A stretch of DNA of 35,372 nucleotides from a virus. This document shows, piece by piece, positions 1 to 35,372 of this stretch. The notes under the pieces are model-generated. The model saw only the letters and a list, made by a program, of their open reading frames with translations. It was not told the DNA's origin and did no database searches. The position numbers were made by a program, and so were the translations under genes. Where the stretch lies: IMG/VR virus record IMGVR_UViG_3300044633_000885, positions 1 to 35,372 of that record; one strand, given 5' to 3'. The first letter of the stretch is position 1; the number at the start of each line of letters is the position of its first letter.

Positions 1-141
1 CTCCTTTGATCAGACCTTGAACACAACGGACGCAGTGGAGTTTGCTGGCCTTGTTAACAACGGCCTGACCTTTCCGACGGCAGACGGCACCGCTGGACAA
101 GTAATCGAAACAGACGGCGCGGGAGTCCTTAGTTTTGTTAC
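1..141. repeat. Terminal overlap of a circular genome, left copy
   Basis: This segment is repeated at 35232-35372. The copies are co-linear and identical except at position 127 (c here, t at 35358). A coding frame entering at 35125 stays open through the join, so the overlap most simply reflects a circular or circularly permuted molecule assembled past its own start. The identical run is 126 bp, similar to an assembler k-mer overlap, so it need not be a biological terminal repeat. Confidence 0.93.
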
Positions 142-1738
142 GCCTAGCGGTGGTGACTTTCTGCCACTCGCTGGCGGGACGATGACAGGCAACATTGTTT
201 TCGATGGCACCAGTGGGCAATTCATCGGCAAGGGAACCTTCGACACCGCACGAAGCGGCAATTATGGCATCTCAATCGTTTGCTCCGTTGGCTACGAATT
301 TAACTGGCAAGCTGGCTGGCTGATAACCACAGAGCAAAGCTCGGCAACACCACGGCCCCTTTATCTAGACTCGCTCGCTGGCACTACCTTAAGAGCATGG
401 GATTCTTCAGCGGCAACAGGCACCGAAGTTACTCATTTAGGAATCACTTTTGCAGACACCACGGTGCAGACTACAGCGTACACCGGAGGGGCAGGCGTTT
501 CCTCGCTCACCGCTGGCACTGGCATTTCTCTTGATGTGACCACTGGCGATATCACCGTCACAAACTCAGAGCCAGACCAGACGGTAACGCTTACGGATGG
601 CACTGGCATTACTGTTACTGGAACTTACCCATCGTTCACTATCGATTCTGATATCACGCAATACACAGACACCGACGCAAGACTCGCAATCTCGGCAGGC
701 ACAGGTATCAGCTACGATAACGCAACCGGAATCGTGACTAATGATAATCCAGACCAGACCGTAGTTCTTACCGATGGCACCGGCATTACAGTTACTGGAA
801 CTTACCCGAGCTTTACCGTTACCAACTCATTACCAGACCAGACGGTAGTCTTGACCGATGGCACCGATATTACGATTACCGGCACCTATCCGAACTTTAC
901 TATCGCTTACAGTGGCGCTGGTGCAGGGGTTTCCTCTTTGACCGCTGGCGCTGGTATTTCACTCGATGTGACCACTGGCGCAGTTACCGTCACAAACTCC
1001 GAACCAGACCAGACCGTAGTTTTGACCGATGGAGCAGGGATTACGGTTACTGGCACTTATCCATCCTTCACGATTACCTCTAGCATTACGCAATACACCG
1101 ACACCGACGCAAGGCTTGCGATCTCCGCAGGCACCGGTGTCAGCTACGATAACGCAACCGGCATCATTACCAACGATAATCCAGATCAAACGGTAACGCT
1201 CACGGATGGTGCAGACATTACGATCACTGGCACTTACCCTTCGTTTACGATTGCTTACAGCGGAACGCCTTCAAGCGGAACCGTTACCACCGCAAGCGTA
1301 GTAAGCGCAAACGGCTTTGCTGGCACAGTGGCAACGGACACCACCACACCAGCGATAACAATTTCAACTAGCATCACAGGGCTTTTAATCGGCGACGGCA
1401 CTGCTATCGCAGCAGCTACCGCAGGCACCGACTATGTTGTTCCGTCTGGATCGATCACCGGCTCGGCAGCATCCTTATCTGCTACGCTCGATATAACTTC
1501 TGGCGGCACCGGAGAGATTACCGCAACCGCATCCTTCAACGCACTTGCTCCTAGCCAAGCTAGCAACAGCGGAAAATATCTAAAAACGGATGGCACGAAT
1601 ACTTCTTGGGAAACGCTACCGAGTGCGCTACCTGTCACGCTATTTAGTGGCAGTGTGACCAATGTCAGTATTTCAAATGGCTCGTTGCCAGTGCTTTTAT
1701 TTGGTGGCGTTACCACCGTTAATGTAACCGTCACCTAG
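1..1738 (+). CDS. Tail fibre protein with internal repeats (3' part; gene starts at 35125 across the join)
   Basis: This is the 3' part of a 614-residue structural protein whose GTG start lies at 35125; the local ATG at 17 is internal (residue 42). Near residue 90 is FLPLAGGTMTG, a motif widespread in phage tail fibres. A repeat block follows (about residues 199-466): five copies of a unit around DQTVVLTDGTGITVTGTYP, two copies of a unit around QYTDTDARLAISAGTG, and two of VSSLTAGTGISLDVTTG. The C-terminal part has TSGGTGEITA and GKYLKTDGTNTSW, again typical of fibre ends. It probably forms a trimeric beta-rich fibre binding the host surface. The next fibre-type gene follows after 8 bases with a good SD, so they are likely co-transcribed. 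Receptor and fold are inferred. Confidence 0.88.
   Translation, partial: SFDQTLNTTDAVEFAGLVNNGLTFPTADGTAGQVIETDGAGVLSFVTPSGGDFLPLAGGTMTGNIVFDGTSGQFIGKGTFDTARSGNYGISIVCSVGYEFNWQAGWLITTEQSSATPRPLYLDSLAGTTLRAWDSSAATGTEVTHLGITFADTTVQTTAYTGGAGVSSLTAGTGISLDVTTGDITVTNSEPDQTVTLTDGTGITVTGTYPSFTIDSDITQYTDTDARLAISAGTGISYDNATGIVTNDNPDQTVVLTDGTGITVTGTYPSFTVTNSLPDQTVVLTDGTDITITGTYPNFTIAYSGAGAGVSSLTAGAGISLDVTTGAVTVTNSEPDQTVVLTDGAGITVTGTYPSFTITSSITQYTDTDARLAISAGTGVSYDNATGIITNDNPDQTVTLTDGADITITGTYPSFTIAYSGTPSSGTVTTASVVSANGFAGTVATDTTTPAITISTSITGLLIGDGTAIAAATAGTDYVVPSGSITGSAASLSATLDITSGGTGEITATASFNALAPSQASNSGKYLKTDGTNTSWETLPSALPVTLFSGSVTNVSISNGSLPVLLFGGVTTVNVTVT
491..1264 (+). repeat. Duplicated super-repeat inside the tail fibre gene
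   Basis: Two diverged super-units lie in tandem, about 491-920 and 922-1264. Each runs from the VSSLTAG segment through the QYTDTDAR segment to the DQTV...GTYP.F units. The first has three DQTV units and the second two. Unequal recombination between units could lengthen or shorten the fibre shaft; that is an inference. Confidence 0.85.
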
Positions 1739-1746
1739 GAGAAAAC

Positions 1747-2388
1747 ATGGCAGCACGATATCCATTAGTAGTGAACACGACCACAGTGCAAGAACTGCAA
1801 AGCGGCGACACGCTTTCTTTGACTTCACCTACGCTCGTCACTCCTATACTTGGCACACCTTCCAGCGGAACGCTCACCAGTTGCACCGGACTTCCAATCT
1901 CAACAGGTGTAAGCGGACTTGGTACTAGCGTTGCTGCATTCCTTGCTACTCCAAGCTCGGCCAATTTAAAAACCGCCATCACGGATGAAACCGGCACCGG
2001 CGGAAGTTTAGTTTTTGCCACCGCACCAACGCTTACAAGCGCAACGATCACCAGCCTCATCGAAACGAAAACCGCACCAACGATATCGACAGGAACACTG
2101 ACTTTAAATTGTGCTTTAGGAAATGTGTTCCATGTAAGTTTGAACGCAGCGATAACCACATTGACAATCAGCAACATACCGACCACCGGAAACGCTTTCG
2201 GGATCACACTGGCATTCACGATGGATGGAACGGCTAGGGCTGTGACTTGGGGTGCCGCTGTGAAATGGGCCTCTGGTGGTACGGCACCAACGCTGACTAG
2301 CACTAACGCCAAGGTAGACATCTTTGTGCTGACCACATGGGATGGCGGTACGACATGGTATGCGATGGTTGGAGGTCAAAACTTCTAA
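1747..2388 (+). CDS. Second tail fibre-type structural protein (213 aa)
   Basis: The protein is rich in Thr, Ser, Gly and Ala, with the repeating pattern PTLVTPILGTPSSGTLT...TGLP near its N-terminus and ETGTGGSLVFATAPTLTSA in the middle; both are widespread in phage tail and appendage proteins. The C-terminal half (about 120-213) is a compact beta-rich segment ending WDGGTTWYAMVGGQNF, a common terminal domain of phage fibre proteins. The ATG follows an AGGAG-type SD at the end of the preceding gene. It overlaps the next gene as TAATG. It probably sits at the tail tip with its neighbours. No enzyme motif is visible. Confidence 0.8.
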   Translation: MAARYPLVVNTTTVQELQSGDTLSLTSPTLVTPILGTPSSGTLTSCTGLPISTGVSGLGTSVAAFLATPSSANLKTAITDETGTGGSLVFATAPTLTSATITSLIETKTAPTISTGTLTLNCALGNVFHVSLNAAITTLTISNIPTTGNAFGITLAFTMDGTARAVTWGAAVKWASGGTAPTLTSTNAKVDIFVLTTWDGGTTWYAMVGGQNF

Positions 2389-3407
2389 TGCCAATCTCTA
2401 GAAAAATCATGGGTGTAAAAAGGGGTGTTACTTTCACAGGTGCATTAAGTGGCACTACCACAATTGCGACTGGTACGAGTCCGCAAGATATTTGCATTTC
2501 TGCCGACGGTGCCTCAGTCTATGTAACTAATAGAACATCCGCCACAGTTAGCTTTTTTGCTCGTAATACAAGCACCGGCGCACTTTCTGGAACTACCACA
2601 ATTGCGACTGGAGCAAATCCGCAAGATATTTGCATTTCCGCAGATGGTGCCTCAGTCTATGTGGCCAATAACAACTTATCAGGCACCGTCAGCATCTTTG
2701 CTCGAAACACCAGCACAGGCGCACTTTCTGGGACTACTACGATTGCAGCCGGAACTAGTCCTTACGGTATTTGCGTTTCGGCCGATGGTGCCTCGGTCTA
2801 TGTAACTAATTCCAACGCCAATACAGTTAGCATCTTTGCGAGAAACACCAGCACAGGAGCGTTGTCTGGCACTAGCACTATCGCCACCGGATCAAGTCCT
2901 TACGGTATTTGTATTTCCGCTGATGGTGCCTCAGTCTATGCGGTTAATAATAACGCAGCCACAGTTAGCATTTTTGCTCGAAACACCAGCACAGGCACAC
3001 TTTCTGGCACCACCACAATTGCCACGGCTGCAAGCTCTTTTTCTAGGCGAATTTGCATTTCCTCTGATGGTACAAGCGTCTATACATCTAACTACAACAC
3101 CGCCAATGTCAACTTTTTTGTTCGGAATACCAGCACAGGCGCACTTTCTGGCACCACCACAATCGCCACGGGAACAAACCCTTTTGGCATTTGCGTTTCG
3201 GCAGATAAAACAAGCGTCTACACCAACAACCGTGGTAGCTCTACCACTAGCATCTTTGCTCGCAATATAAGCACAGGCGCACTTTCTGGAACTACGACAA
3301 AAGCCACAGGAACTTGGCCCCAAGGCATTTGCATTTCCGCTGATGGTACAAGCGTATATGCGGTTAATAACAACAGCAACACAGTCTCAATCTTCACTCG
3401 GAGCTAA
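2388..3407 (+). CDS. Seven-repeat YVTN-type beta-propeller tail protein (339 aa)
   Basis: After about 17 residues the protein is seven tandem copies of a 46-48 residue unit with core GALSGTTTIATG...GICISADGASVYV.N....TVSIFARNTST. This is the YVTN beta-propeller repeat, and seven copies match a closed seven-bladed propeller. Such domains in bacteria and archaea bind surface or carbohydrate ligands. Its place between fibre genes suggests a receptor-binding or virion-decoration role. The start at 2388 is preferred over an upstream ATG at 2337 because it overlaps the previous stop (TAATG) and has GGAGGT at 2371-2376. Repeats are nearly identical in DNA as well, so the array is probably young. No signal peptide is seen. 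Confidence 0.85.
   Translation: MPISRKIMGVKRGVTFTGALSGTTTIATGTSPQDICISADGASVYVTNRTSATVSFFARNTSTGALSGTTTIATGANPQDICISADGASVYVANNNLSGTVSIFARNTSTGALSGTTTIAAGTSPYGICVSADGASVYVTNSNANTVSIFARNTSTGALSGTSTIATGSSPYGICISADGASVYAVNNNAATVSIFARNTSTGTLSGTTTIATAASSFSRRICISSDGTSVYTSNYNTANVNFFVRNTSTGALSGTTTIATGTNPFGICVSADKTSVYTNNRGSSTTSIFARNISTGALSGTTTKATGTWPQGICISADGTSVYAVNNNSNTVSIFTRS
2433..3403 (+). repeat. Seven tandem repeats of about 138 bp in the propeller gene
   Basis: Each period begins near a gcactttctggaactac-like segment and ends near agcatctttgctcg. Neighbouring copies share long identical stretches. The fifth copy carries an insertion (SSFSRR), and the fifth to seventh lack some consensus residues. 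Repeats this similar can collapse or expand in short-read assembly. Confidence 0.85.
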
Positions 3408-3410
3408 CCC

Positions 3411-3770
3411 ATGCAATACGCAAAAATAAACGGTGATGTGATCCTAGAATTTCCATCCTATCCACACACAAACCATCCTAACACCAGCTTTTCAGAAGGC
3501 TGGCAGGGTGGCGATGTGGAAGGATCAACCTATGTTATGGTTGAAATTGAAGACACACCAGCTACCGACTACCTGACACAAGACACGGAAGTTGAACCAC
3601 CGAAAAAGGTGAAGGGCAAATGGTCAGTGAAAACCAAAGTGAAAGATATTTCGCTAGAGGAAAAAGCTAAACGCAAAGCGGATAAGGCAGAGCGAGACGC
3701 AGAGCAAGAGGATAACTTTTTAACCAAAGCAGAAATCAAAGCAATACGAAAACTTCTTAAGGCGCAGTAA
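3411..3770 (+). CDS. Small tail-associated protein (119 aa), tail fibre assembly-like
   Basis: The N-terminal half (MQYAKINGDVILEFPSYP...NTSFSEGW) resembles a common type of small virion or fibre-associated protein in phages. It is followed by a charged, probably helical segment rich in Lys, Glu and Asp (about 65-119) that could be a coiled coil. The ATG lies three bases after the propeller stop, with GGAG about 10 bases upstream, so it is translated with the fibre genes. It may be a chaperone or connector for one of the adjacent fibres, but no catalytic motif shows this. Function is a context inference. Confidence 0.6.
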   Translation: MQYAKINGDVILEFPSYPHTNHPNTSFSEGWQGGDVEGSTYVMVEIEDTPATDYLTQDTEVEPPKKVKGKWSVKTKVKDISLEEKAKRKADKAERDAEQEDNFLTKAEIKAIRKLLKAQ

Positions 3771-3782
3771 CCCGAAAGGCCC

Positions 3783-5300
3783 ATGATGAACCTCTTCCTA
3801 TGGCTCTTGCTATTCAGTCAGATCGAGGCAACCTCCGTCGAGGGTGGCCGCACCTCTCCCGATGGCGCCGAGGAAATTCAAATCGACTTGCCCGGATCGC
3901 AACAGATGAAGAACACCGGAGGCAAAGACGGCGCGGGCCTTTGTGTCTTCACATCGATCGAGCACGCAGGCAGGTGGCAAAATGTGGACTCCATCCTCGG
4001 ACTCCAACAGAAGATGACTAAGGAGCAGGGTGGTGGCTATCCTAGCAAGGTTGAAAAGATGCTCGCTAAATACTGCGACGGCGCACAGTATCTTCAGTAC
4101 GAAGGAAGCGACCCCGCTTTGATCAAGCTTGCCCTCACTACGGGTCGGATGCCCTCGGTTACTTATGGCTACTCGCCCAGGTACACCGGCAAGATTGCGC
4201 ACATGGTCAACGCAGTACACCTCACCGAGAAATGGGCAGCGATCTTGGATAATAATTTCCCTGGTGAAACCAAGTACGAATGGATGAGCCCTAGCGAGTT
4301 CAAGAAGAGATGGGTCTCGGGTGGTGGTGGCTGGGCCGTGGTCGTGATTGCACCCCCGCCTCCACCGATGCCGTACAACGAGGGCGAACCGGTTAAGGTG
4401 TACGGGCAGAAATGGGGCACACCCTCGAGCGCTGCGGTCGTAGCGCCCTATGAGTGGAAAGTTATCGATGCCAACCAAATAGCACTCTACAGCGCAGGCA
4501 AGCAGCTCGGCGTCTGGATCATGGCGAGGCAATGCTACCGGGAACTTCTCCCCGATGGCAACTGGAGTGCAGACCAGGAGCTCGCCCCGTTCGCACCACC
4601 CGCATCGCACCTCGCAAAGATCATCGAACAACAGGAGCAGAACTTCGGACTCGATCGATCCCGCATCGACTCAGGTGTGGAGAAGTTCTGGTTAGGTGGC
4701 AGAGAGGTTACCCGTAAACAAGCCTACAGCGCAATCGAGGGGAAGGGTAAAGACCTCATCGATGACCGGGAAAAGCTTCGGCTAACTGTAATCGGCACGC
4801 CGTCTGAATGCAAGGCAGTGATCGCAGATCTCGAAAGCAACCCCGCACTCAGCGTGTTTGCTGACACCCTCTTGGTGCAAGCTTACCGACCCGATAACTG
4901 GGCAGTCAAGGAACTCGGGTTCCTTCCCGGTACACCTCGCATTATGGTGCAGGGTGGCCCAGACTTCCGAGGAGCGGGTAAGGTGCTGCATAGCCAAGGT
5001 GATTACAATGGCGGGGCTAATGCCCTTGCTGATGCCCTCAGACGGGTAAGGCCTGACTACGACCCCAACAAGGATGTGGACAAACGAAAAGCCCCCGCAA
5101 AGCCTACGGCACCGGATGCGGGAAACAGCACCATCGCACTCATTGTGATGTTGTTGGCAGGCGGGTTAACCGTGGCGGGTTTCCCTGCGTTGGCATCCCT
5201 AGTGCGCATCGGTGGCTCGATGTTCACACCCAAGCCTGCCGAGGTCGTGGTGGAAACTGTAAAGAGGAAAGCCGTAAAGCCAAGAAAGAAAAAGGTTTAG
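3783..5300 (+). CDS. Secreted, membrane-anchored C39-like cysteine peptidase; candidate lysis enzyme (505 aa)
   Basis: Residues 1-16 form a hydrophobic export signal. Residues about 45-185 look like a papain/C39-type fold: Cys54 in GAGLCVFTS, His140 in IAHMVNAVH, and Asp156/Asn157 in AILDNNFPG could be the catalytic triad. A proline run (191-196) leads to a second domain. Residues about 345-425 look thioredoxin-like, with a probable cis-proline in GTPRIMV. A strong membrane helix follows (about 448-472, STIALIVMLLAGGLTVAGF) before a basic tail. It lies directly before a holin, and no lysozyme, amidase or transglycosylase motif is recognisable elsewhere, so a cell-wall-cleaving role in lysis is the best inference. 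Alternatives are a virion-associated or host-surface-modifying peptidase. Confidence 0.6.
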   Translation: MMNLFLWLLLFSQIEATSVEGGRTSPDGAEEIQIDLPGSQQMKNTGGKDGAGLCVFTSIEHAGRWQNVDSILGLQQKMTKEQGGGYPSKVEKMLAKYCDGAQYLQYEGSDPALIKLALTTGRMPSVTYGYSPRYTGKIAHMVNAVHLTEKWAAILDNNFPGETKYEWMSPSEFKKRWVSGGGGWAVVVIAPPPPPMPYNEGEPVKVYGQKWGTPSSAAVVAPYEWKVIDANQIALYSAGKQLGVWIMARQCYRELLPDGNWSADQELAPFAPPASHLAKIIEQQEQNFGLDRSRIDSGVEKFWLGGREVTRKQAYSAIEGKGKDLIDDREKLRLTVIGTPSECKAVIADLESNPALSVFADTLLVQAYRPDNWAVKELGFLPGTPRIMVQGGPDFRGAGKVLHSQGDYNGGANALADALRRVRPDYDPNKDVDKRKAPAKPTAPDAGNSTIALIVMLLAGGLTVAGFPALASLVRIGGSMFTPKPAEVVVETVKRKAVKPRKKKV

Positions 5301-5372
5301 AAGAAAGTTATTACGAGGCGGTTGATAAATGGAAATTTCAGCAGACGATGAACGAATAATAAGGAGTGCCTC

Positions 5373-5594
5373 ATGGATAAGTTAAAGTCAGGTTGGAAGA
5401 CTTCAGAGTTCTGGACGACGCTCGTCCTCCAGGGCGTTAGTTTAGCGGTGATCGTGGGCATGGTTAACGGAACCGAGAGTGCAACGCTCACGGATTCGCT
5501 GACTAAAATGGTCACCGCCATTTTCACCCTAGCCATTTCTGGCGGGACTACTCTTGCCTATATCAAAAGCAGATTCGATCTTAAAAACAAATGA
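5373..5594 (+). CDS. Putative holin, two membrane segments (73 aa)
   Basis: A small basic protein with two hydrophobic helices, about residues 14-35 (WTTLVLQGVSLAVIVGMV) and 46-64 (MVTAIFTLAISGGTTLAYI), followed by a charged tail. Size and topology match class II phage holins, which open the inner membrane at the timed end of infection. AAGGAG sits about seven bases before the ATG, and the gene follows the candidate lytic peptidase. Its stop overlaps the next small gene as ATGA, so they are translationally coupled. The family is not certain from sequence alone. Confidence 0.7.
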   Translation: MDKLKSGWKTSEFWTTLVLQGVSLAVIVGMVNGTESATLTDSLTKMVTAIFTLAISGGTTLAYIKSRFDLKNK

Positions 5595-5740
5595 CTACCT
5601 TCCACAGGGTCATCACTGGAATGCTCGTCGCATGGTGTTGCTGGTTCACGCTCTATGGTGGTTGCCACTGCTACGCCGATCGACCTTTCCTCAAATTGGC
5701 AAAGCTCCTCCTCTGGCTCCTCGGGTCTCTCGCTCTCTAG
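5591..5740 (+). CDS. 49-residue membrane protein in the lysis region
   Basis: This short frame starts at an ATG overlapping the holin stop (ATGA at 5591-5594) and ends TAG at 5738-5740, just before the SD of the next gene. Tight fit on both sides supports a real gene. It has a hydrophobic stretch at about residues 8-24 (with Cys16 and Cys17, then Cys25 and Cys27) and a second, Leu-rich one at 33-49. The position after a holin suggests an antiholin, spanin-like or other lysis accessory protein, but it is too short and generic to classify. Confidence 0.55.
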   Translation: MTTFHRVITGMLVAWCCWFTLYGGCHCYADRPFLKLAKLLLWLLGSLAL

Positions 5741-5753
5741 ACAGGGAACACAC

Positions 5754-6104
5754 ATGGAAGAAGACCCTTGGTTGAAACACTTAGAGCAATGCTACAGCGA
5801 CCGTGATAACGGAGCAAAGGCTTCCGACCCCGAAGACCTGCGCACGCTGATGCTACGGAGGATAGTGATCACCTTCGGCGTCGATTCGGATTATGTCAAT
5901 AGCCTCATGCCGTTACTGATCCAGCAGTTCGTGATTGAATATGCACGACACGGCTCGAGCAAGAAGTGCTTTGAATCCCTCGATGATAACTTCATCGACT
6001 TGAGCGACCCACGCTTTCAGGTCAAGTTAAAGAAGATCCGCAGAGGCAGGGGCAATGACCCTTACGAAATACCACCCAAAACCAAAGGCAAGCTGGATGG
6101 CTGA
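5754..6104 (+). CDS. Hypothetical protein (116 aa)
   Basis: The start at 5754 is preferred because AGGGA lies seven bases upstream and the previous small gene ends at 5740; the ATG at 5655 would read through a low-complexity Ser stretch out of the 49-residue gene. The protein is mixed charged, mostly helical in appearance, with a basic C-terminus (KLKKIRRGRG...). There is no signal, membrane segment or recognised motif. Its 3' end overlaps the next gene by eight bases, so both are probably co-translated. Function unknown. Confidence 0.65.
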   Translation: MEEDPWLKHLEQCYSDRDNGAKASDPEDLRTLMLRRIVITFGVDSDYVNSLMPLLIQQFVIEYARHGSSKKCFESLDDNFIDLSDPRFQVKLKKIRRGRGNDPYEIPPKTKGKLDG

Positions 6105-6552
6105 GATTACCTGCATCACCTGCGGAGAACGCAAACCACACCGAGCCAAGGGGCTTTGCATCAAGTGCTACGATCGCATACCCAGAAGGCTGATAACCTG
6201 CATCTCATGCGGGGAGCGCAAGCCCCACGAGGCGAGGCAACTCTGCCGCCAATGCTACAAGAGCACGGGGCCCGACACGCCGAAGATGTCGCACTCGCTC
6301 GGGTGCGTCAAGGCAGAGGAGGAGAACAAGCGAGACTCACTGCGGGTGCCACCACTCGGGCCGACGCTAGCGCGCCCCGGATCTGAGGAAAAGATTCAAG
6401 TCCTCATCGCCAGGCACACCCGCTTTGAAACACTCTATCACCCCAACGACTGCGTGATCCCGAAGGAGCTTGACGGCGCTGGCTCAAAGCGCATCGATGG
6501 CGGCTGGCATAACGGCGCACAAATCTTTCACGCCCCCGATCTCGATGACTAG
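6097..6552 (+). CDS. Tandem zinc-ribbon protein (151 aa)
   Basis: Two copies of a CxxC-x11-CxxC ribbon occur back to back: CITCGERKPHRAKGLCIKC and CISCGERKPHEARQLCRQC. They are clearly a duplication. Such ribbons bind zinc and often nucleic acid or protein. The remaining residues (about 55-151) are hydrophilic with no recognised domain; DGGWHNGAQIFHAP near the end looks conserved-like but I cannot name it. The ATG at 6097 lies inside the end of the previous gene. The frame ends inside the start of the next gene. Role is unknown. Confidence 0.65.
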   Translation: MAEITCITCGERKPHRAKGLCIKCYDRIPRRLITCISCGERKPHEARQLCRQCYKSTGPDTPKMSHSLGCVKAEEENKRDSLRVPPLGPTLARPGSEEKIQVLIARHTRFETLYHPNDCVIPKELDGAGSKRIDGGWHNGAQIFHAPDLDD

Positions 6553-6775
6553 CCAGACCCGGCGAATGTCCCTGGTCGAGTCCATCGCTAACACGGGCGC
6601 AGGCTTTCTTGTATCCCTACTCATTCAGATTTCACTCTTCTCAATCATGGGAATCGAAACCACGACCACGCAGAACATCACCTTGAGTGGGGTGTTTACC
6701 TTGGCCAGTCTGGTGCGGGGCTACCTCATGCGGAGGCTGTTTATATGGTGGCAAAGTGGTACAACATTTTTTTAG
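6545..6775 (+). CDS. Small two-TM membrane protein, DUF7220-like (76 aa)
   Basis: The sequence TSQTRRMSLVESIANTGAGF... followed by a helix, a short Thr/Asn loop (about 38-46) and a second helix ending SLVRGYLMRRLF matches the pattern I recall for DUF7220 phage membrane proteins. That family assignment is from memory, not a search. The ATG at 6545 overlaps the previous stop, which favours it over the upstream ATG at 6470. Placed last in the lysis region before attP, it may modulate lysis or act at the membrane during infection. The gene ends in a T-run, but no clear terminator hairpin precedes it. Confidence 0.65.
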   Translation: MTSQTRRMSLVESIANTGAGFLVSLLIQISLFSIMGIETTTTQNITLSGVFTLASLVRGYLMRRLFIWWQSGTTFF

Positions 6776-6887
6776 AAATCATGCGTATTCCTGCATAATA
6801 ATGCATAAGAAGTTTAACGGATTTTAAAAAATTAGCGATGATAATACGCTATCAGAATAGGGCTTTGCTGCTCTTCCATATTTCCGG

Positions 6888-6931
6888 TTGGGGTGGAAGA
6901 GGTCGCAGGTTCAAATCCTGTATCCCCGACC
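6888..6931 (+). other. attP: Probable attP core: 3' half of a tRNA-Pro(GGG) gene
   Basis: Read as tRNA the segment gives an anticodon loop TTGGGGT (6888-6894; anticodon GGG 6890-6892, G37), 3' anticodon stem GGAAG, variable loop AGGTC, T-stem GCAGG/CCTGT (6905-6909 and 6917-6921) around TTCAAAT, acceptor strand ATCCCCG (6922-6928), discriminator A6929 and CC. CGGGG-type acceptor, A73 and G37 fit tRNA-Pro. The 5' side does not form a matching anticodon stem, so only the 3' half is present. That is the usual form of an attP that rebuilds the host tRNA after integration, and the integrase gene follows directly. Confidence 0.82.
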
Positions 6932-6963
6932 TTGTTTTTGATAGAAAAGTGATTTTGGGAAAG

Positions 6964-6985
6964 TTGTACTGTACAACATTGTACA
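6964..6985. promoter_or_regulatory. Operator-like palindrome with an extra half-site
   Basis: TTGTAC-T-GTACAA (6964-6976) is a perfect 6-bp dyad around one base, and a third TTGTACA half-site starts at 6979. The palindrome overlaps the presumed -35 region of the integrase promoter, which is where a repressor would bind. The binding protein is unknown; the products at 8379 and 9065 are candidates. Confidence 0.6.
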
Positions 6986-6999
6986 CCTTCTGCTATGAT
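6970..6999 (+). promoter_or_regulatory. Predicted sigma70-type promoter for integrase
   Basis: An extended -10, TGCTATGAT, lies at 6991-6999 (TATGAT one base off consensus). A weak -35 (TGTACA, 6970-6975) lies 18 bases upstream. Transcription would begin near 7006, which excludes the ATG at 6995 as the integrase start. Confidence 0.55.
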
Positions 7000-7048
7000 T
7001 CTCCGCATGGAGGCCCGCTTTTGGGCTTCTTCCGTGCGAGTTCAAATC

Positions 7049-8263
7049 ATGGCAAAGAAAAAAGTACCCGGTCTGCTACACCATAAGGGAAAAAACTTAG
7101 GGTATAGCATCAGCCCCGCAACCCGTAAGGCCACTTACCACGGGCAGTGGGGCCTCGTAGCTACCAAGCAGGCCTACCTCCGATGGTGTGCTGACCTTCT
7201 TACTGAGGATGTCTCACCCTCGATCGTGCCTGAACACGAACCCGTTGTCGCTGACTTAGTCAACGCAATGATTAAGCACTCCATTTCCTACTACCGAGAC
7301 CCGACCACCGGGAAACCCACATCGCAGGTGGGTGTCATCAAGTCGGCACTGCGGGAGCTCGACCTTTATCTTGAAATGAAAATAAAAGATTTTAAGCCCT
7401 CAGTGCTGGTGGCGGTTCGTGCTGCCATTGTCAACCGAGACATCATTCCCCAGTCAGAAGGCGCACCGAAAAAGAAATTGTGTATCAGTAGTGTGAACAA
7501 TGCCATCGTAAAGATTCGCCAGATGTTTAAGCTCGGTGTCGGATGGGAACTTGTCCCAGTCGAGATATACCAAGCGCTCGCCTGTGTCCAGCATCTCAAC
7601 TGGAGAACCGCACCAACCTTAAGGAACCCTGACAGGATCGCCCCCGTGCCTGTTGAGTACTTCAGACTGATCATGCCCCACTTGAAACCAATGTACCGTG
7701 CAGTGCTCACCGTCCACCTCGCAACCGGGATGCGTGTCAAGGAACTCTGCTCCATGCGTTGGTCGGAGATGACGGAGGTCGAACCCGGTCTCTGGTGCTA
7801 CGCTCCAGCGGAACACAAGAACTCTCACCGGGGTGATCCGAGATTAATCTACATGAAGACCGATCTCATCGACCTCATGCGCTCCGTACGCAAACCGCTT
7901 TGGGATAAAGATGCTGTCTGGTGCCAGCGTGGCGTTGGCAAGAGTGCTGGCTACAGCGGCATGATCAGTGGTGATGGCTACGCCCGAGCCATTGAGGGTG
8001 CACAAAAAAGATACAACGAGGGCAGGCTCGCAATCAACCAGGGCGCTCGTACCGATAAAAAGAAACTCGACACCACCTCTGCAAAGCGTGCCCCGATGGA
8101 ACACTGGACACCGTTACAAATCCGACACACCGTCGCAACGCAGGTGCGCCGCACTCACGGGCTCGAGGGAGCGCAAGCAGTACTCGGTCACAGCACCCTT
8201 GACGCCACGCAAATCTATGCGGAAAAGCGGGACGATCTCGCACGGTGCGTAGCCCGAGGGTAA
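7049..8263 (+). CDS. int: Tyrosine-family site-specific integrase (404 aa)
   Basis: It catalyses integration and, with a directionality factor, excision of the prophage. From the 7049 start the catalytic residues are Arg229 (TGMRVKEL), a probable Lys in the following beta-hairpin (AEHKNSHRG), Arg359-His360 (LQIRHT), His381 (LGHS) and nucleophile Tyr390 (QIYAE). The first His of the usual HxxR box is Leu here (TPLQIRH). The C-terminal string THGLEGAQAVLGH is typical of planctomycete integrases. An N-terminal SAM-like/core-binding region covers about 60-190. The start MAKKKVPG is chosen because the ATG at 6995 lies in the promoter; ATG 7007 at the expected transcript start remains possible. attP lies 118 bp upstream. 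Confidence 0.93.
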   Translation: MAKKKVPGLLHHKGKNLGYSISPATRKATYHGQWGLVATKQAYLRWCADLLTEDVSPSIVPEHEPVVADLVNAMIKHSISYYRDPTTGKPTSQVGVIKSALRELDLYLEMKIKDFKPSVLVAVRAAIVNRDIIPQSEGAPKKKLCISSVNNAIVKIRQMFKLGVGWELVPVEIYQALACVQHLNWRTAPTLRNPDRIAPVPVEYFRLIMPHLKPMYRAVLTVHLATGMRVKELCSMRWSEMTEVEPGLWCYAPAEHKNSHRGDPRLIYMKTDLIDLMRSVRKPLWDKDAVWCQRGVGKSAGYSGMISGDGYARAIEGAQKRYNEGRLAINQGARTDKKKLDTTSAKRAPMEHWTPLQIRHTVATQVRRTHGLEGAQAVLGHSTLDATQIYAEKRDDLARCVARG

Positions 8264-8345
8264 ATAGTGCCAAAAATTATTTAAAATAATTTAAATATTT
8301 TATATAGATTTGGTGATCAATAGTGTTATCTTAATTTTTCTACGA
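8264..8345. promoter_or_regulatory. Very AT-rich intergenic stretch with a palindrome
   Basis: The stretch after integrase is nearly all A and T. It contains AAATTATTT (8274-8282) and its exact complement AAATAATTT (8284-8292) around one base, then TATATAG. It probably serves as promoter or operator DNA for the candidate regulator that follows. No exact -35/-10 pair stands out, and it lacks a GC-rich stem, so it is not a good terminator for integrase. Confidence 0.4.
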
Positions 8346-8378
8346 ACGACTTCCCCAGTTACTAAGGATATTTCGCCC

Positions 8379-8786
8379 ATGAGTTTGATTTTTGAGATGG
8401 CAATAGAAAAAGCGGCAAAAGAAGCAATGCACAAATATCTATACAATGATTCGGAGGGCAATTCCGGTGGCGGGTATAATGATTCTGCGGTGCTAAATGT
8501 AGTAGCTAAAAGGAGGGACAGCAAAATGTCGTGGATGGATTTCTCAGATAAAGAACTGCGCATTGTGAACGAGGTTGAAAAGAAACCCGGTATGGGTGGC
8601 AAGCAGATCATTGCACTCATGAGCACCTTTGATGCAGAATACCCGGACGGGCAGTGTCAGGAAGCTATGACTAAGATGCTTCTGGCAAACCTTGTAGACA
8701 GAAAGGTTTTAATATCGCAGGGAAAACAAGGCTATATCCTAAATGATTCAGATACCCCCCCCCCCCCCATCTTACCAAAGATATAA
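8379..8786 (+). CDS. Candidate winged-helix regulator (135 aa)
   Basis: Residues about 50-130 (DFSDKELRIVNEVEKKPGMG..., then MLLANLVDRKVLISQGKQGYIL) have the helix-helix-helix-wing rhythm of a winged-helix DNA-binding domain, with the final GYIL as the wing strand. An N-terminal charged helix (about 4-22) may dimerise. It sits between integrase and the early genes, a usual place for a lysogeny regulator, and no classical CI-like repressor is seen elsewhere. ATG 8379 has AAGGAT 11 bases upstream; ATG 8310 is possible but encodes an unrelated hydrophobic leader. A run of 14 C (8755-8768) encodes TPPPP near the C-terminus, so length changes there would alter the tail. The fold is inferred by eye. 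Confidence 0.6.
   Translation: MSLIFEMAIEKAAKEAMHKYLYNDSEGNSGGGYNDSAVLNVVAKRRDSKMSWMDFSDKELRIVNEVEKKPGMGGKQIIALMSTFDAEYPDGQCQEAMTKMLLANLVDRKVLISQGKQGYILNDSDTPPPPILPKI
8755..8768 (+). repeat. C14 homopolymer in the coding end
   Basis: Fourteen consecutive C residues lie 18 bases before the stop of the candidate regulator. Such a tract is prone to slippage in replication and in sequencing, so the reading frame of the last six to ten residues is uncertain. Confidence 0.9.
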
Positions 8787-32285: not shown

Positions 32286-33313
32286 TGTCCAGCGCATATG
32301 GCTTCACTGAAGACTCAGCAAGACGGATCGCCCGCGTCGTGAAAGCGGTCGAGGGCGACACGACCACGCCGACACGGATCGGGCCCATGCTCGGCGGTTC
32401 CACGATGTCGGTGGTGAAGGTGACGGCACTAGGCTCGCCACTCAACACCGGGCAGCGGGTGGACTACCACGCCAGCGCAAACACCATGAATGACATTAAC
32501 GAAGTAAAGATCCGGGAACTCAACGGCGCCGCGCTCACCGTGGGCTCTCGCTACATGGGGCAATTCTCTGGCTACACCGAAGCAGGGTTGCCGGTGTTTG
32601 TGGTGAAGACGAGCACCGCCTCGGGTGGTTCCGCAGTGATCGATGTGGTGACTGATGTTGTCGTAACTCCAACTGGTTTGGATGTGACATACGCCACCTT
32701 CTCGGGAGCAGACTACGATAACGCAGTGATTAAGCAATTTCTTGCGCTTTCAGATGTTACTCCATCCAGTTATATTGGCAACCAGAACCGATGTGTAAAA
32801 GTAAACAATGCTGCAACAGGTTTAGAATTTGGTGCAATAACAGATGTAACCGCATCCACCTTCATTGCTTTGACTGACACCCCATCTGTTTGGGGAACTA
32901 ATGCCTACAAGACACTTACAGTTTCAAGCACAAACAATAGCGTAGTATTCTCCTTAAACAATGTAGCAACCGCAGGCTCAATCGAAGGGGGTGGCAACCC
33001 CAACGACCCTACTTATGTTGCTCTAAGTCTGGTGAACGATAAGACAAGTCCTGGGAATTACTATGCTTACTCTACAAACTCATCTGGTGTGAAAGGTTGG
33101 AACCTTCAATCAGCGACACCAGCAGGCTTAACCGTTGGTGGCAATGTGGTAGTCAGTAGCAGAAAAGCAGCGGTCACTGATGTGGCAGCGCATACCATTT
33201 CTAGCGCAGACCTAGCCACCGCAGCGTCAACAACACAAACCGCTATTGATGATTTGACAACTCAAGTGAACCTGTTATTAGCTCGTATCCGATCTCACGG
33301 ATTAATATCCTAA
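32285..33313 (+). CDS. Tail tip/fibre-adaptor protein (342 aa)
   Basis: The middle carries two copies of a tail-fibre motif: FLALSDVTPSSYIGNQNRCVKVN...TGLEFG and FIALTDTPSVWGTNAYKTL. The last about 40 residues are a coiled coil ending NLLLARIRSHGLIS, common at the end of phage tail proteins and likely for trimerisation. It starts overlapping the preceding stop (TAATG) and ends overlapping the next gene. DNA around 32750-32990 is richer in A/T than the flanks, suggesting an exchanged module. It probably anchors or forms a fibre. Confidence 0.7.
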   Translation: MSSAYGFTEDSARRIARVVKAVEGDTTTPTRIGPMLGGSTMSVVKVTALGSPLNTGQRVDYHASANTMNDINEVKIRELNGAALTVGSRYMGQFSGYTEAGLPVFVVKTSTASGGSAVIDVVTDVVVTPTGLDVTYATFSGADYDNAVIKQFLALSDVTPSSYIGNQNRCVKVNNAATGLEFGAITDVTASTFIALTDTPSVWGTNAYKTLTVSSTNNSVVFSLNNVATAGSIEGGGNPNDPTYVALSLVNDKTSPGNYYAYSTNSSGVKGWNLQSATPAGLTVGGNVVVSSRKAAVTDVAAHTISSADLATAASTTQTAIDDLTTQVNLLLARIRSHGLIS

Positions 33314-34713
33314 TGCAATTTTACACAGGTGGAAGTCAGATTGTTGGTTACAACTCAACCACTAAGGAAATATCGTTTTCTTTTGGTTTCAATAATAATT
33401 TTCCAACTGTTCCATATCAGTTAATTCATGATCCTCTGATTCACAGAATATTGCTTTGTGGTGCTAGTTTTGATTCAAACATAATTTATCACGCAAGAGT
33501 GACTGGAGCATCCGCTTGTACTGTGCATTCAACCCGAGCAGATGCAGAGGCAAACATAAACATAATTAGCTTTGCAACTAATCCCACTCCAGTCAAGTTT
33601 TTAGACTACGATATACCAGATAATTTTGCTGCGTTCTACGCACAGAGTACCCTGCCAAAAATCGTTTTCAGTCCTGATCCTGAACTTACAGCAGGCTACA
33701 ACCAAATTTATACCAGTTCTAGAATCGTAATTACAGATGCCTACCTGAATAATTCTGGATATGTATCTAATCAAGGAATTTATAAGATACCAAGTCGTGG
33801 TCTAGGTGTATCACCTAACCCATACAACATAAGCATTGGAAATATAGATGAGGTTTGCGAGTACAGTGAAGGCTCTTACTATTCCAGAGTTTTGACTTTT
33901 GCAGGTGTTTCAGGAAGGATTCACTTTTACGCTCAAAATCACCAACAGTATTACTCGCAACACCAAAGCCGAATTTTTACCATAGACAGAGTTTCTGGCC
34001 TAACAGATTATGATGTTGGCACACATGTCTATTTTCCTTTTAGCTTGTGTTACAGTGTTAAGAAAAAGCAGATAAATCAAGCCGCAAATGCTGTAAGTTG
34101 GAGTCATGATAATGATAGCGAAAGAAACTATTGGTTTAAGACTCCTATATTTAACATTATAGCAGCGGGATATAACACTACTAGAACTTACTCCACTACA
34201 CCACCAACGCCTACTCCAACGCCTACTCCAACGCCTACTCCAACGCCTACTCCAACACCGACCCCAACTCCAACACCGACCCCAACACCTACCCCAACAC
34301 CAACGCCTACCCCAACTCCTACCGTTGCGTTTGCGATTTACGACCAACTACCGGGGCCGGGCGATGTGGCGAACGGGTCATGGGATACCAGCAATTCGGG
34401 GGCTGGAAGCTTTAGCGACCACCTCTCCTTCCAGAGTAGCAGCAACTTCCCAAGCGTCGGCGGATACCTCTACATATACCTGACACCTAATGTAACCGGC
34501 GTCCTCACTTACAGCATTACTTGGTCAGTGGCTGAAATTGGCAGCAGCTTCGCCGGGATGGAAAACCCGTCTGGATCAATGGGCGATTTTACCCTTGAGG
34601 GCGGCCTAAATGTGACCGCAGGAGTCGCCTACCTCGTTGCGACTCACCGCCCCGCAAACCTGCCAGACAATTACACCTATGTCACAGGTGATGTTTATGT
34701 TTCGCCGTCCTAG
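33313..34713 (+). CDS. Receptor-binding-type tail protein with a (PT)20 linker (466 aa)
   Basis: Residues 1-297 are an aromatic, beta-rich domain with no recognised family, encoded by DNA clearly richer in A/T than the rest. Residues 298-337 are twenty Pro-Thr pairs, an extended rod-like linker. Residues 338-466 are a Gly/Ser-rich beta domain (FAIYDQLPGPGDVANGSW...) in GC-richer DNA. A head, linker and end domain layout suits host contact. The composition change at the linker suggests domain exchange there. It starts overlapping the previous stop (TAATG). Confidence 0.65.
   Translation: MQFYTGGSQIVGYNSTTKEISFSFGFNNNFPTVPYQLIHDPLIHRILLCGASFDSNIIYHARVTGASACTVHSTRADAEANINIISFATNPTPVKFLDYDIPDNFAAFYAQSTLPKIVFSPDPELTAGYNQIYTSSRIVITDAYLNNSGYVSNQGIYKIPSRGLGVSPNPYNISIGNIDEVCEYSEGSYYSRVLTFAGVSGRIHFYAQNHQQYYSQHQSRIFTIDRVSGLTDYDVGTHVYFPFSLCYSVKKKQINQAANAVSWSHDNDSERNYWFKTPIFNIIAAGYNTTRTYSTTPPTPTPTPTPTPTPTPTPTPTPTPTPTPTPTPTPTPTPTPTVAFAIYDQLPGPGDVANGSWDTSNSGAGSFSDHLSFQSSSNFPSVGGYLYIYLTPNVTGVLTYSITWSVAEIGSSFAGMENPSGSMGDFTLEGGLNVTAGVAYLVATHRPANLPDNYTYVTGDVYVSPS
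34204..34323 (+). repeat. Pro-Thr coding repeat
   Basis: Twenty PT codon pairs in 120 bp. The first eight pairs are perfect copies of a 12-base unit (ccaacgcctact); later units vary. Simple repeats like this change length readily and can misassemble. Confidence 0.95.
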
Positions 34714-34781: not shown

Positions 34782-35132
34782 ATGCCAGCAGGAATCTACA
34801 ACTTTGCGGCAGAACAGGGCGCAACGCTCGCCCGTACGATCCTTTACACCGACGCTGACGAGGTCGAGACCGATCTGACAGGCTACACCGCTGCTATGCA
34901 AGTACGACCAACCGCAGCGAGCGCAACCGTCACGCTGGAGCTCACCACCGAAAACACCCGAATCACGCTTGGCGGTGCCGCTGGAACTGTGGATCTACTC
35001 GTTGACGCGGCCACGATGGAAGCGATTACGCCTGGTAAATACTTCTATGATCTCGAGCTTTATAACGGCTCAACGGTGATCCGGTTGATTGAAGGCACTT
35101 TCACCGTGAAAGCGGAGGTGACCCGTGCCTGA
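34782..35132 (+). CDS. Baseplate/fibre N-terminal adaptor-like protein (116 aa)
   Basis: GIYNFAAEQGATLARTILYTDADEVETDLTGYTAAMQVRPTAASATV is the common small beta-domain found at the base of phage fibres and baseplates (BppU N-terminal-like). The ATG at 34782 has CGGAGGT five bases upstream; the frame from 34713 reads unlikely sequence. It overlaps the fibre gene start (GTG 35125) by eight bases, so it probably links that fibre to the tail tip. Confidence 0.72.
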   Translation: MPAGIYNFAAEQGATLARTILYTDADEVETDLTGYTAAMQVRPTAASATVTLELTTENTRITLGGAAGTVDLLVDAATMEAITPGKYFYDLELYNGSTVIRLIEGTFTVKAEVTRA

Positions 35133-35372
35133 TATTGTAGTGGTCACAGAATCCGGCATCGTCACAGTCGCACAAGGCGAAACGCTGGTAACCGTCTACG
35201 ATGGCCGAGGGTTTAAGGGTGATCCCGGCGACTCCTTTGATCAGACCTTGAACACAACGGACGCAGTGGAGTTTGCTGGCCTTGTTAACAACGGCCTGAC
35301 CTTTCCGACGGCAGACGGCACCGCTGGACAAGTAATCGAAACAGACGGCGCGGGAGTTCTTAGTTTTGTTAC
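35125..35372 (+). CDS. Tail fibre protein, 5' end (continues at 1-1738 across the join)
   Basis: GTG 35125 opens PDIVVVTESGIVTVAQGETLVTVYDGRGFKGDPGDSF..., with a short collagen-like G-x-y stretch (GFKGDPGD) frequent near fibre N-termini. The frame (residue 1 at 35125) stays open to the window end and, by the 141-bp overlap, continues exactly in frame at 1-1738, giving 614 residues. The GTG lies inside the end of the adaptor gene, so translation is coupled. AAAGCGGAGG lies just upstream. Confidence 0.9.
   Translation, partial: MPDIVVVTESGIVTVAQGETLVTVYDGRGFKGDPGDSFDQTLNTTDAVEFAGLVNNGLTFPTADGTAGQVIETDGAGVLSFV
35232..35372. repeat. Terminal overlap of a circular genome, right copy
   Basis: This is the second copy of bases 1-141 with a single difference (t at 35358 for c at 127). 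The substitution (gttctt versus gtcctt) turns GTC into GTT and leaves the encoded Val unchanged, so it could be population variation in the sampled phage. Confidence 0.93.

Follow-up and report, generated by a model that had tools for sequence, protein, structure and literature searches.

A seven-bladed YVTN-type propeller as the probable, exchangeable receptor-binding tip of a phage tail fibre

Results

The window analyzed here, i.e., the full 35,372-bp stretch of IMG/VR record IMGVR_UViG_3300044633_000885, is a virus sequence whose terminal 141 bases are repeated with one mismatch (1-141 vs. 35232-35372), and because of this end repeat the record is regarded as an effectively complete, circularly assembled genome of ~35.2 kb. 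The genome was assembled as a circle, although the record may carry a linear class. Its head module comprises TerL, portal, protease, and capsid genes, followed by connectors and a major tail protein; the tape-measure position is taken by an ORF of 1130 aa. Next come fibre genes, which cross the record ends, then the gene for the propeller, one for a small protein, and the integrase gene (Table 1); the propeller gene thus directly follows the fibre genes in the late region, as the initial annotation had it when placing the gene in a phage tail cluster. We infer that the window represents a temperate tailed phage, probably a siphovirus. The integrase ORF is listed from 6995, with the ATG at 7049 as its likelier start. 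Two further ORFs deserve mention. After the tip module, ORF 3783-5300 (505 aa) has Cys- and His-containing stretches that resemble a cysteine peptidase by eye and returned no match in Pfam or PHROG, and a protein nearby in locus L082 has a weak papain match (0.04). A low-complexity PT-repeat linker lies at 34202-34323, within tail-region ORF 33313-34713.

Table 1. Features of the tail-fibre end of the window and of the adjoining integration region.
Feature	Position	Strand	Evidence or remarks
Repetitive fibre gene	1..1738	+	5' part at 35125-35370, gene spans the record ends; ORFs and end repeat
Upstream fibre gene	1747..2388	+	phrog_9017 tail fiber protein, 2e-15; alignment A1, 86% mean column identity
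Fibre C-terminal domain, conserved partner of the slot	~2050-2385	+	Alignment A1
Putative tip adhesin gene, leader plus seven YVTN-type blades, 339 aa	2388..3407	+	PF10282, AlphaFold2, Foldseek/VIA-align
13-codon leader MPISRKIMGVKRG	2388..2426	+	Common to YVTN tips and KAIFGYG tips; predicted disordered, pLDDT ~31
Seven blades	2436..3404	+	Starts 2436, 2574, 2715, 2853, 2991, 3135, 3273
Small conserved 119-aa protein, marker of the cassette's right-hand breakpoint	3411..3770	+	Follows the tip gene in every YVTN locus read; phrog_4998 weak, 1e-4
tRNA-Pro-like block, probable attP, beside integrase	6880..6940	+	Same sequence in L017, which has the other tip type, and in L042
Tyrosine integrase	7049..8263	+	PF00589, 2.4e-12; 95.4% DNA identity to L017

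The mechanical ORF of the propeller gene opens at 2337. The ATG at 2388 overlaps the stop codon of the fibre gene (TAATG) and starts a leader conserved in all relatives, which makes 2388 the right gene start. Behind the leader are seven tandem units of 46, 47, 46, 46, 48, 46, and 44 residues; in Tandem Repeats Finder this array scored 647 at period 138, the top score in the window, and the protein matched PF10282 (Lactonase, 7-bladed propeller) at 4e-42, with 145 bits against a curated cut-off of 21.7. An AlphaFold2 model, built from an input alignment of 15 phage relatives, has 28 strands ordered 7 x 4 (pLDDT 86.5, pTM 0.86), and by Foldseek and VIA-align it groups with propellers, seven-bladed ones at the top, including a Z of 39.7 to the seven-bladed design 7big. 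Accordingly modeled, the protein is predicted to form seven four-stranded blades closed into a ring, and the strand order suggests a "velcro" closure in which the last blade would be completed by the first strand. The initial annotation had read the seven repeats as a whole propeller and proposed structure prediction as a check, which the model bears out. Its description of the repeats as near-identical was too strong, with pairwise identity between window blades averaging 71% in protein (54-85%), and the high DNA identity it reported was overstated at a mean of 69% (61-81%), though the likeness is well beyond chance, as the same codon is used at 56% of same-residue sites between blades vs. 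37% after shuffling of the protein's synonymous codons. Seven blades occur in 17 of the 18 distinct relatives and five in the remaining one. Databases already contain a protein of this kind, UniProt A0A6J5SZJ1 from an uncultured Caudovirales phage (COG3391; 333 aa, 61% identity and TM 0.95-0.97 to the window protein), which is annotated automatically only.

The family name, the PF10282 match, and the presence of a GDSL esterase behind the same fibre end in one locus (L076) could point to a tail enzyme, i.e., a lactonase or other propeller hydrolase altering the cell surface. Enzymes of the lactonase/cycloisomerase kind, judging by the muconate cycloisomerase relatives, use His/Glu-type catalytic residues. 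Since the window protein contains neither His nor Glu, and most relatives none or one or two, a lactonase was dismissed as unlikely, and with seven equivalent blades offering no unique pocket residues we regard any enzymatic role as highly improbable. An inner-strand Cys is present in every window blade (2388-3404) and in 120 of the family's 124 blades, and the seven Cys could possibly form a ring around the channel; a pattern-based count at this residue in YVTN proteins of bacteria yielded too few motifs to judge whether the Cys is specific to phages.

The ten IMG/VR loci found with the window protein all have seven units and a leader of the form MPISRKIMGVxRG, and the TAATG overlap is present in the window and nearly all relatives. 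Searching the viral collection with the leader DNA retrieved phages in which this fibre end and leader are followed by a different repeat, KAIFGYG. Both tip types, 29 loci in all, conserve the leader, which opens the tip gene as MPI[SN]RKIMGVSRG, and in 28 distinct loci the tip gene comes after this fibre end and leader. A scan with the fibre C-terminal domain gave 55 loci, most of which, where the next gene was readable, have such a leader and then YVTN blades or KAIFGYG repeats. Other occupants include a tail-fibre protein of the DUF7483 kind in L073, a protein combining LamG and a GDSL esterase in L076, and in L077 a gp38-like protein rich in glycine. Among cultured phages whose fibre end is related, the gene that follows encodes a glycine-rich protein in Microcystis phage Mel-JY34 and a DUF7483 protein in two Roseobacter phages. 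Because the other occupants are of these gp38-like, DUF7483, and LamG/GDSL kinds, families of tail fibres or host specificity, we consider the position an adhesin slot. The leader shares 67% of its codons between loci vs. 48% in the fibre end (64% in some fibre stretches), a DNA-level conservation that could stem from recombination and not from what the peptide does.

YVTN propellers are known from cell surfaces (e.g., 1l0q) and the phage is temperate, so the protein might be imagined as a prophage-made coat of the host, masking receptors or capturing ligands outside the virion. Its gene, however, starts within the fibre stop codon in the late region and occupies a slot also used by tail-fibre families, and no signal peptide is evident, which makes such a lysogen surface protein very unlikely.

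The KAIFGYG tip consists of six units of ~47 aa with the motif KAIFGYG...TNLVSNxGVVSxDTTGVGTAR and is unrelated to the YVTN blades. In the slot, each of the nine KAIFGYG tips examined is followed by a 206-aa protein, which is absent from the YVTN loci read. Scanning with this protein (L043:6237-6854) yielded 57 viral loci, and since KAIFGYG-type repeats are in the gene directly upstream in 41 of the 42 loci inspected (among L096-L151), the 206-aa protein is their dedicated partner. The upstream repeats are joined to very different N-terminal parts, in one case on a 322-kb contig. The partner is plausibly a chaperone; it gave no match in PHROGs, none above the Pfam cut-off, and none in phage or plasmid collections. 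A KAIFGYG profile (alignment A5) matched the Photorhabdus PHL/PLL lectins at E 9e-12, which are seven-bladed propeller lectins (PMC6943638), and on this match we class the repeat as PLL-lectin-like. The AlphaFold2 model of the repeat (pLDDT 46) was too poor for the fold to be read.

Comparison of the window with L017 and L043 showed 84% DNA identity over 1622-2425, no similarity over the propeller, and 92% over 3417-8624. The swap thus has clean breakpoints, one near codon 13 of the leader and the other within the opening codons of the following gene, with similarity restarting at 3417, inside the gene for the 119-aa protein. The same tip replacement separates L001 from L064 (95.9% downstream) and L042 from L043 (~90%), such that downstream flanks are 90-96% identical between phages with swapped cassettes. 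Because the window and L017 share an exactly alike 61-bp tRNA-Pro-like block and integrases 95.4% identical, the swap probably occurs between phages that share a host group. A tree of 28 fibre ends (17 YVTN and 11 KAIFGYG) has 9 changes of tip type vs. 8.9 with shuffled labels, at least six of these changes being forced by well-supported branches. Tip type therefore shows no phylogenetic signal on the fibre tree, and the tip resembles a tool head that can be exchanged.

Across 15 proteins, blade DNA identity was 71.2% within a protein vs. 63.4% between blades at the same position in other proteins. Blades of one protein grouped together on the blade tree (37 changes vs. 84 when shuffled), and position gave no grouping (74 vs. 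72); codon sharing between blades exceeded codon-usage shuffles in every protein. Two blades of L058 have identical DNA, two of L039 are 99.3% identical, and a truncated relative (L044) fuses blades like blades 1 and 6 of L002. This pattern indicates concerted evolution of the blades, most simply explained by recombination between them, in repeats of a kind that short-read assembly can collapse. A variable blade number, which the initial annotation held would break the seven-blade closure, was seen in one related protein only: L041 and L042, from two metagenomes, equal L039 minus two blades (five vs. seven), which possibly reflects a true deletion or an assembly collapse. As to the window itself, same-position blades of the window and L001 share 84% of their DNA vs. 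69% among the blades within either protein, so the seven-blade state is not very recent and predates the split of the two. Of the recent amplification or concerted evolution previously suggested, the latter is upheld in the family, while the window's blade number is older than proposed.

Variation among blades is one-sided. The d-a and b-c loops, taken from the DSSP of the predicted model, share one face by strand geometry and have a mean entropy of 2.21 bits vs. 0.69 bits for the opposite loops (P = 0.002), and the variation on that face is rich in Tyr, Arg, Phe, Gln, and Trp. In blade pairs >80% identical, dN/dS was ~1.19 at variable sites vs. 0.10 in strands, the former being a small-sample counting estimate from columns picked partly for variability and hence indicative only. 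Between the window and L001, dN/dS at variable top-face sites was 0.22, i.e., conserved. It seems that new blades first diverge on one face and are constrained later.

That loops are conserved between the window and L001 would also suit a structural cap or fibre-folding factor, in which the propeller closes the fibre end or aids its folding and the top face varies because constraint is relaxed; the place directly behind the fibre gene is also that of chaperones, T4 gp38 among them (PMC12892980). Since the many replacements by an unrelated repeat protein and the one-face variation in the residues named above fit ligand contact better, we think a cap or folding factor unlikely. Phage receptor-binding proteins are common targets of diversity-generating retroelements (DGRs; PMC10743442), and the variable face might thus be taken for a DGR target; an RVT_1 search of the effectively complete record found no reverse transcriptase, which does not support DGR-driven variation and leaves this explanation a negligible probability.

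The initial annotation had also taken the propeller to be host-derived and pointed to planctomycete surface proteins. A scan of ~85,000 bacterial and archaeal genomes (species) with two exact peptide patterns, which diverged host proteins would escape, found a single genome encoding a relative, a MAG named Flavipsychrobacter in which the gene lies on a phage-like contig of 8.5 kb. The best other match among 296 genomes of the MAG's phylum scored 96 bits vs. 495, and plasmid matches to the propeller are ~34% identical. No planctomycete link emerged from this general scan, by which planctomycetes were covered, and recent capture from a host or from a planctomycete surface protein is not supported, given the phage-like contig, the 96-bit next match, and the ~34% plasmid matches. 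Judging from the fold family, old descent from cellular YVTN proteins is likely. TerL relatives are broad and all <60% identical, and the attP core matched the 395 genomes of the MAG's phylum that were searched only with two mismatches.

Discussion

An adhesin role is supported by the adhesin slot behind the fibre gene and by variation on one face. We therefore propose, at a probability of roughly 0.7, that the propeller protein is a separate receptor-binding tip of the tail fibre, gp38-like in action and a propeller in fold, with a docking leader, one variable face toward the ligand, and a slot that serves as the site of exchange. The earlier suggestion of a receptor-binding device is thus backed by slot context, gp38-like, DUF7483, and LamG-GDSL co-occupants, and one-face variation; the protein is probably located in the virion. 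Through the TAATG overlap, translation of the tip would be coupled to that of the fibre gene, the 13-residue leader would dock the tip onto the conserved fibre C-terminal domain, and the seven-bladed ring would turn its variable face to a ligand on the cell surface, for which a glycan or glycoprotein is the likeliest candidate. Recombination bounded by the leader and the beginning of the following gene could then swap the whole tip, a YVTN propeller for a KAIFGYG repeat with its 206-aa partner or the reverse, and recombination between blades could copy and delete them, after which the top-face loops would diverge.

The gp38 of T2-type phages lies at the tip of gp37, which its N-terminus binds, and bears hypervariable loops (PMC12892980). 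Like the window tip, gp38 of the T2/S16/PP01 type is encoded by a separate gene directly behind the fibre gene and has a constant N-terminus and a variable face or loops on a constant scaffold. However, gp38 has glycine-rich motifs forming a polyglycine II sandwich, whereas the window protein is predicted to be a seven-bladed propeller, and because the fold differs the window tip is not a member of the gp38 family. The likeness between N-terminal fibre binding by gp38 and the window leader is suggestive only, being drawn from leader conservation. The archaeal surface-layer YVTN propeller 1l0q is the best PDB sequence match (1.6e-31) and the best Foldseek match (Z 38.1, rmsd 1.7 over 277 residues); it is a cellular surface protein with PKD domains, ~30% identical to the window protein. 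Propeller domains occur in proven or putative receptor-binding proteins of phi11, PRD1 (P2), and phiKZ (gp131C) (PMC4901313). Those of phi11 and PRD1 are five-bladed, and phiKZ gp131C has seven blades within a larger protein, whereas the window tip is a separate seven-bladed protein; an exchange of cassettes behind a leader, as in the window, is described for none of the three in PMC4901313. A survey of highly repetitive propellers of the Pereira and Lupas type, viruses included, traced blade likeness within proteins to amplification (PMC9218822); it names neither phages nor YVTN, and the present case differs in that blades are older in the window and homogenized across the family. Within the open-licence literature on YVTN or seven-bladed propellers in phage tails, we found no description of this slot or exchange.

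More tentatively, with the odds somewhat against it, these phages may switch receptors without a reverse transcriptase: phages integrating at the same host tRNA site, with a constant fibre end and leader, would often exchange whole propeller tips from two unrelated repeat families, one with its dedicated 206-aa partner, and blade recombination inside each tip would supply new ligand faces. If our reading is right, a compact adhesin slot is defined in uncultured phages, in which receptor specificity changes wholesale by cassette exchange and finely by blade recombination behind a constant docking leader. Simple recombinant proteins would then make it testable how amplified, symmetric propellers turn into ligand-binding devices, and the leader, fibre end, and 206-aa partner would be handles by which receptor-binding proteins now listed as unknown may be annotated.

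YVTN repeats were also seen outside the slot. In L001, the fibre gene that precedes the propeller (2998-7998) bears YVTN repeats of its own near the N-terminus, and the tail of that phage may have two propellers. A single contig of 274,625 bp carries three separate YVTN-repeat genes (L182, L185, and L187); L182, the one read, has PTPTP linkers.
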